Part shown: positions 28,367-33,206 of the stretch, one piece after another
Layout of the letters: the number at the start of each line of letters is the position of its first letter
Position numbering within the stretch: position 1 is the stretch's first letter
Assembly: GCF_021533835.1 (NCBI RefSeq)
Contig: NZ_JAKFYQ010000001.1
Span: 1,584,079 to 1,648,078, forward strand
Direction: 5' to 3'
Length of the DNA: 64,000 nucleotides
Origin: Synechococcus sp. Nb3U1
GTDB taxonomy: Bacteria; Cyanobacteriota; Cyanobacteriia; Thermostichales; Thermostichaceae
Program-made: the position numbers and the translations under genes
Notes under the pieces: model-generated
Seen by the model: only the letters and a program-made list of their open reading frames with translations
Database searches by the model: none
Told to the model about the DNA's origin: nothing

Positions 28367-29392
28367 ATGCCGGATCGCCAGGGGGATTTTATGCAGGATG
28401 TGCGCCGTTGTGGGGTGAACCTGGATTACTGGTGGCCGGTTGCCCATGAGCGCAGTTTTCCGGCGACGGGGCTGTTGGGGGTGCGGATTGGGGCGTTGGA
28501 GTTGCTGGTATTTCGCGCACCCACAGGTCATTACAGCGTGTTTGAGGATGCTTGCCCCCACAAGCGGGTGCGGCTGAGCCGCTTCGGGGAAGTCGTGGGA
28601 TCCGAGCTGATGTGCAGCTATCACGGTTGGCGCTTTACGGCTCAGGGGAATTGCAGCCTCACCCCCGGATTCGCCGGCCTTGAAGCCAAGTTTTGCCTGA
28701 AAAGTTACCCGCTGCGGCAATATGGTGGCTGGATTTGGGCTTTTCCTGGGGATCCCACTCGGGTGGAGGAGCGGGCCTTGCCAGTAATTCCCCCCGCCAC
28801 GGATCCCTGCTATCACCCGATCCCGATGGAAGGGCCGGTTCATTGCCACTTCAGTTACATGACGGAAAATGCCACCGACCTCTTTCATGCCCAGTTGCAC
28901 AAGAGCCAACAACCCTGGGCCAATCCGGTTTTGTTGCACCTAGAAAGCGATGATCGCAGTGTTTGGGCTCTTTACGAGGTAGAAGCGCCACGATTATTGG
29001 CGGCTTTGATCGGGCAGCGGGGCAAAAATCGGATCCGGGTCACCTATGAGTATCCCTATTTTCATTTGGCCTCGGAATACGGAGCTTTTTACCTGTTTGT
29101 GGTGTATGTACCCACCAGTTCTACGAGCATTTGGGTGCATTCCACTTTTTATTTTCGGCATGTGTTAGGGATCCCGTGGATTTTACGATTGCTGCATCCG
29201 CTGTTGGATCAGGGCACCTTCCGCCAGGTGTTTGGGCAGGATCGCCGCGCTGTGGAAGAGGAACAACGGGCCTACAATTTGCATCAACAGGATCTGAGCC
29301 GCGAAACCAATCCGGTCTCTCACGCGGTTCGGCAGGTGATTCGCCAACAAACCCTAGCCAGCTCCCCCTTGCCCGAGCGGATCCCAGAGTAA
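28367..29392 (+). CDS. Rieske-type non-heme iron oxygenase
   Basis: The N-terminal Rieske domain has both cluster motifs, CPHKRVRL and CSYHGWRF. The catalytic domain has NATDLFHAQLHKSQ, which supplies the Asp and two His ligands to mononuclear iron, separated as in ring-hydroxylating oxygenases. Size (341 residues) and layout resemble single-component, plant-like enzymes (pheophorbide a oxygenase and choline monooxygenase relatives) that draw electrons from ferredoxin. No C-terminal membrane anchor is evident. ATG 28391 (MQDVRR) is an equally possible start. Substrate unknown. Confidence 0.85.
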   Translation: MPDRQGDFMQDVRRCGVNLDYWWPVAHERSFPATGLLGVRIGALELLVFRAPTGHYSVFEDACPHKRVRLSRFGEVVGSELMCSYHGWRFTAQGNCSLTPGFAGLEAKFCLKSYPLRQYGGWIWAFPGDPTRVEERALPVIPPATDPCYHPIPMEGPVHCHFSYMTENATDLFHAQLHKSQQPWANPVLLHLESDDRSVWALYEVEAPRLLAALIGQRGKNRIRVTYEYPYFHLASEYGAFYLFVVYVPTSSTSIWVHSTFYFRHVLGIPWILRLLHPLLDQGTFRQVFGQDRRAVEEEQRAYNLHQQDLSRETNPVSHAVRQVIRQQTLASSPLPERIPE

Positions 29393-29413: not shown

Positions 29414-29443
29414 AAAAAAACCGCCCGACTCTACGTCGAGCGG
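29414..29443 (-). terminator. Rho-independent terminator of the candidate RNA
   Basis: On the minus strand CCGCTCGAC-GTAGA-GTCGGGCGG forms a 9-base stem (one U-G pair) and is followed at once by TTTTTTT. It also stops any read-through from ligA. Confidence 0.88.
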
Positions 29444-29662
29444 AAGATGGTGTGAGGAGTGAACGGAAACATGCGTCTCCGCTGCTCCCATCATAGTGGA
29501 ATTCGATTGGCCCTGGCAAAGAATGTGGGAAGAGACAGCCGCGCCTTTCAGTTAAATTGGATACTTTTTTGAGAAGAGGTTCTGGCACCTTTTCAAACCA
29601 AAAGAGGGAAGGGACTGTCCGTGTTTCGTCCACTTCCCCCTATTGGCGTCCACTCCTCACCT
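29414..29662 (-). ncRNA. Candidate structured small RNA, about 250 nt
   Basis: Between ligA and the Rieske gene a complete transcription unit for a non-coding RNA can be read on the minus strand. A promoter (29670-29698) places +1 close to 29662. Directly after it, GTGAGGAGTGGAC (29660-29648) pairs over 13 bases, one G-U, with GTTCACTCCTCAC (29464-29452), closing a 183-nt internal domain. A terminator hairpin with seven T follows at 29443-29414. No convincing reading frame exists. The closed 5'/3' stem and size recall 6S RNA, but the interior did not fold into an obvious 6S rod with a central bubble, so I leave the family open. RNase P, SRP and tmRNA signatures are absent. Confidence 0.6.
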
Positions 29663-29669
29663 GAAGGGT

Positions 29670-29698
29670 ATCATAAATCATCCCTGCGGGCAGAACAA
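29670..29698 (-). promoter_or_regulatory. Sigma-70-type promoter for the candidate RNA
   Basis: On the minus strand TTGTTC (29698-29693) and TATGAT (29675-29670) are separated by 17 bases. The -35 box is 28 bases past the ligA stop, so the unit is independent of ligA coding sequence. Confidence 0.65.

Positions 29699-29725: not shown

Positions 29726-33206
<3,481 letters not shown>

Follow-up and report, generated by a model that had tools for sequence, protein, structure and literature searches.

Tandem genes for a Yfr2-family RNA and for Yfr1 between ligA and a Rieske-type gene in Synechococcus sp. Nb3U1

Yfr1 and Yfr2 belong to the small number of regulatory RNAs that are retained across the cyanobacteria. 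Both their interaction and the relief of Yfr1 repression by Yfr2 are known from cyanobacteria other than the one studied here: Yfr1 of Prochlorococcus is pulled down by Yfr2 and no longer represses a reporter in its presence (PMC6778093), and Nostoc Yfr2 binds Yfr1 in EMSA gel shifts (PMC6974561). Yfr2 RNAs, of whose family Cyano-1 is the motif (PMC8400943), combine an unpaired 5′ end with a long stem that has a conserved loop of 12 nt and a bulge at −4 (PMC2662882), and in the literature yfr2 genes are described with little or no conserved position. Pairs of neighbouring genes were reported in Prochlorococcus MED4 (Yfr10-Yfr2, Yfr12-Yfr4 and Yfr18-Yfr5), together with a 270-nt Yfr10-Yfr2 precursor (PMC2518516), and proximity has been suggested to raise the interaction potential (PMC6778093). 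For yfr1, the gene order ligA, yfr1, clpX was published in 2007 for the hot-spring Synechococcus OS-A and OS-B′ (PMC2190773).

The locus described here lies in a 64-kb window (that is, the whole stretch of 64,000 nt that was analysed) of the genome of Synechococcus sp. Nb3U1. The minus strand of the spacer that separates ligA (29726-31846) from a Rieske-type ORF (28367-29392, plus strand) carries two known sRNA genes in tandem, yfr2 and then yfr1, with the 5′ part (29666-29592) and the 3′ part (29482-29419) arranged head to tail. The features are as follows:

29693-29698, minus strand: −35 element TTGTTC of the Yfr2-like gene (TTGT invariant in the seven aligned genomes)
29670-29675, minus strand: −10 element TATGAT of the Yfr2-like gene after a 17-nt spacer (TATGAT, TATCAT or TAAAAT in relatives)
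29592-29666, minus strand: Yfr2/Cyano-1 family sRNA, yfr2-A copy (RF01701, 22.8 bits; covarying hairpin)
29651-29660, minus strand: GUGAGGAGUG, the unpaired 5′ Yfr2 motif and complement of the Yfr1 motif (without variation among 10 of 10 Yfr2 copies from the order)
29598-29646, minus strand: Yfr2 hairpin with a bulge four pairs below the loop and a short U-rich 3′ arm (weak terminator)
29627-29616, minus strand: 12-nt Yfr2 loop GAAACACGGACA
29490-29519, minus strand: Yfr1 promoter TTGCCA-18-TATGAT (kept in the seven aligned genomes)
29419-29482, minus strand: Yfr1 sRNA (RF01116, 56.4 bits, E 1.7e-8, gathering score 38)
29450-29460, minus strand: ACUCCUCACAC, the ultraconserved Yfr1 undecanucleotide (PMC2190773)
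29414-29443, minus strand: Yfr1 3′ hairpin plus U7 tract, an intrinsic terminator (nine pairs, then TTTTTTT)

Yfr1 is the sole Rfam family matched at the curated threshold in the entire window, and its locus is the single one above the Rfam gathering score in the source genome. The ACUCCUCACAC element is perfect and sits in the unpaired linker between two stem-loops, in line with the definition of Yfr1 (PMC2190773), and the GC-rich 3′ hairpin with a U tail that typifies the family is present; this hairpin is the terminator stem with seven T (29443-29414, minus strand) that an earlier note on this DNA, made from the letters only, had correctly located. The same note had considered the RNA unassigned, either a new family or a diverged 6S RNA. 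None of these descriptions is supported, as the Rfam search that it proposed returned Yfr1 at the gathering threshold, Cyano-1 (in the 5′ part) below it, and no 6S. A diverged 6S RNA, which had just size and end pairing in its favour, is practically out of the question: RF00013 gives no match at the site even at E ≤ 10, and the real 6S RNA of this genome is located at G000:C1:1891005-1891191 (56.9 bits, above the cut-off), which together rule out 6S RNA at the locus. Outside Yfr1, two further copies of ACTCCTCACAC were found in the genome (G000:C2:755145 and G000:C3:39334), which are possibly Yfr10-like RNAs.

The Cyano-1 model aligns over its full length to the 5′ part, yet its score is below the gathering threshold of 41 bits, and thus Rfam alone would not call this RNA; that threshold is a curation cut-off and not a defining trait of Yfr2. 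The traits of the family are found: in the computed fold the first 13 nt of the RNA are unpaired and carry the GUGAGGAG motif, and a single unpaired base, four pairs away from the loop, forms the bulge. Among the seven adjacent copies, 95% standard pairs are kept in the hairpin and 6 of the 18 pairs have changed on both sides, a number reached by none of 500 shuffles; when three more Yfr2 copies were added, double-sided changes were seen at 10 of the 18 stem pairs. By a family model (R1) made from ten Yfr2 copies of the order, two strong Yfr2 loci were found in each of nine genomes of the order, with the window copy being the A copy and the second, canonical copy of the source genome lying at G000:C1:1664084 (50.6 bits). 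The window copy scores 91.1 bits with R1 but is itself in the training set, as are nine A copies in total, and hence their high R1 scores are not independent evidence. R1 also recovers Yfr2 loci from other genera; in one genome (G296), two additional marginal matches were found. Judged by its sequence, the 5′ part is a Yfr2/Cyano-1 RNA despite its sub-threshold Rfam score.

The low score, together with a weak U tract (CUCUUUU, so short that independent termination of Yfr2 is uncertain), might instead suggest that only Yfr1 is a gene and that the Yfr2-like stretch upstream either serves as a leader or is what remains of a decayed gene. This is very unlikely, as the stretch is kept in seven genomes with compensated pairs, its promoter is conserved, and orthologous A copies are present at other loci in G294 (of the same family) and G292 (an outgroup within the order).

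The promoter TTGTTC-17-TATGAT of the earlier note is indeed present (TTGTTC at 29698-29693 and TATGAT at 29675-29670, minus strand) and belongs to Yfr2. The note had joined this promoter, an end pairing and the terminator into one self-contained unit, from which a non-coding structured RNA with promoter and terminator survives, but not the single gene: since there is a second promoter (29519-29490) and a complete hairpin that ends the first RNA, the three signals belong to two genes. Both promoters are kept in the seven aligned genomes, among which the spacer between yfr2 and yfr1 is conserved neither in length nor in sequence.

In all six genomes of the genus plus one of another genus in the same family (G293), that is, in seven of the eight family genomes, yfr2 precedes yfr1 by ~200 nt on the same strand; in G294 and G292 the genes are separated. 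The pair is flanked by ligA and clpX in six of the six genus genomes, while in G293 it lies between different genes (a bestrophin-type-like and a hypE-type-like ORF, as read from the translations); thus the yfr2-yfr1 pair outlived a change of surroundings. Between yfr1 and clpX, the source genome carries the Rieske-type oxygenase ORF, which among the genus genomes is shared with G298 only; it was not found there in the other four, where clpX follows yfr1. This ORF is convergent with yfr1 and ends 22 nt from the yfr1 3′ end, so that read-through would give antisense RNA to Yfr1.

The end pairing, described earlier as 13 bases, is a real helix: GUGAGGAGUG (29660-29651) pairs with CACUCCUCAC by 10 Watson-Crick pairs, which extend to 14 with one G-U. 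Of random 253-nt segments drawn from the window, ~1% reach an equally long helix whose arms lie 120 nt or more apart, and the full two-RNA stretch folds at −100.6 kcal mol−1 (z −5.15), beating 200 of 200 shuffles. What the helix is not is a closing stem as in 6S RNA; it is the known Yfr2-Yfr1 recognition pair, formed by the Yfr2 motif and the Yfr1 motif. Compensatory changes, looked for across relatives, were absent from this stem, with the motif bases of both arms invariant in the seven aligned genomes, and the idea of a closing stem backed by covariation was accordingly rejected. Since either arm is a motif that its own RNA family conserves, no variation is seen, and the covariation test is uninformative for this helix. 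In seven of seven genomes, the computed Yfr1-Yfr2 duplex gains 12.7 to 20.4 kcal mol−1 over the separate folds, and pairing of the two motifs in cis is computed at 15 to 23 kcal mol−1.

Given the family identities, promoters, conserved linkage and computed duplex established here, it is very likely that yfr2 and yfr1 are two adjacent same-strand sRNA genes between ligA and clpX, each equipped with a promoter and a 3′ hairpin of its own, and that Yfr2 is a decoy of Yfr1. By analogy with other cyanobacteria, Yfr1 would repress target mRNAs by pairing of its exposed ACUCCUCACAC with translation-initiation regions, and Yfr2, whose unpaired 5′ end carries the complement GUGAGGAGU(G), would bind Yfr1 as a decoy, such that more Yfr2 would release the targets of Yfr1. 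Both RNAs are presumably expressed in the source organism, with the same function, where a Yfr2/Cyano-1 member would be expected as an abundant RNA of ~65-95 nt, and any benefit of linkage would probably consist in Yfr2 being made where Yfr1 is made.

A single read-through transcript over both RNAs is possible: the weak Yfr2 terminator may be passed, which may yield a precursor of ~250 nt in which the motifs would pair in cis. It is a different proposal, and quite an improbable one, that a single RNA of ~250 nt (29663 to 29414) closed by the 14-bp end helix is the functional molecule, in which the sRNA units are mere domains and cis pairing keeps Yfr1 inactive until processed. The strong full-length fold, the cis pairing energies in all seven genomes, the weak Yfr2 terminator and the 270-nt Yfr10-Yfr2 precursor of MED4 (PMC2518516) are consistent with such a molecule, but Yfr1 has its own conserved promoter, the spacer between the units varies in length and sequence, members of both families act elsewhere as short RNAs in their own right, yfr2 and yfr1 are not adjacent in G294 and G292, and the end helix is without compensatory changes. 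Two independently started sRNAs, with Yfr1 as mRNA repressor and Yfr2 as decoy, thus remain the most likely reading. A rather speculative extension, for which we see a minor chance, is that in this family the sRNA and its antagonist constitute a joint unit of two genes, which can be transcribed through into one self-annealed precursor and which arose independently of the Prochlorococcus Yfr10-Yfr2 pair; if true, transcription from the yfr2 promoter would both supply the decoy and silence the Yfr1 copies on the same transcript.

Side-by-side placement of yfr2 and yfr1 seems particular to this hot-spring cyanobacterial group. In 65 other cyanobacterial genera, the Yfr2 model found no Yfr2 within 1 to 1.5 kb of any of the 86 Yfr1 loci examined; a general cyanobacterial linkage was therefore rejected, as these loci gave only weak antisense echoes of the Yfr1 motif (≤23.8 bits) and one noise match of 17 bits. 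Around Yfr2 itself, tandem Yfr2 arrays with a spacing of ~160 nt were observed in several other cyanobacterial genomes (L129, L133, L158 and L162), and the Yfr1-motif matches seen next to Yfr2 on the opposite strand in other genera represent, for the most part, additional tandem copies of Yfr2. In a family of marine picocyanobacteria (f20; L124, L169 and L170), a Yfr1-type motif lies ~125 nt from Yfr2 on the opposite strand, which may be either a Yfr10-like RNA or the antisense reading of a further Yfr2. In the Prochlorococcus loci examined, the Yfr1 motif was found ~142 nt upstream of Yfr2 on the same strand, which agrees with the published pairs (PMC2518516).

The two RNA families themselves are already known, and the new part is the sub-cut-off Yfr2 copy and the lineage-specific tandem; the linkage appears undescribed so far, though the Yfr2-family paper (RNA Biol 6:222, 2009) may already mention it. 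The fixed neighbourhood of yfr2 and yfr1, together with the analogue in reverse order in Prochlorococcus, suggests that linkage of regulator and decoy was selected more than once, and the locus offers a compact site for testing such selection.

Compared with Yfr1 of Synechococcus OS-A (JA-3-3Ab) and OS-B′ (JA-2-3B′a), the RNA, its motif and its flanking genes are the same here (PMC2190773, Table 2), whereas the source genome has the extra Rieske-type ORF between yfr1 and clpX, and the table contains no Yfr2 copy between ligA and yfr1. With Yfr2/Cyano-1 (RF01701), the 5′ RNA shares the unpaired 5′ GUGAGGAG, the 12-nt GAAACA.GGA loop, the bulge at −4 relative to this loop and a conserved promoter, but it scores below the gathering threshold, has a U tract shorter than that of the canonical copy in the same genome, and adjoins yfr1. 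The closest precedent for the linkage is Yfr10-Yfr2 of Prochlorococcus: in MED4, as in the Yfr12-Yfr4 and Yfr18-Yfr5 pairs, an RNA with the Yfr1 motif directly adjoins a Yfr2 RNA, yet there the partner is Yfr10-like and upstream of Yfr2, whereas in Synechococcus sp. Nb3U1 it is Yfr1 itself, downstream of Yfr2.
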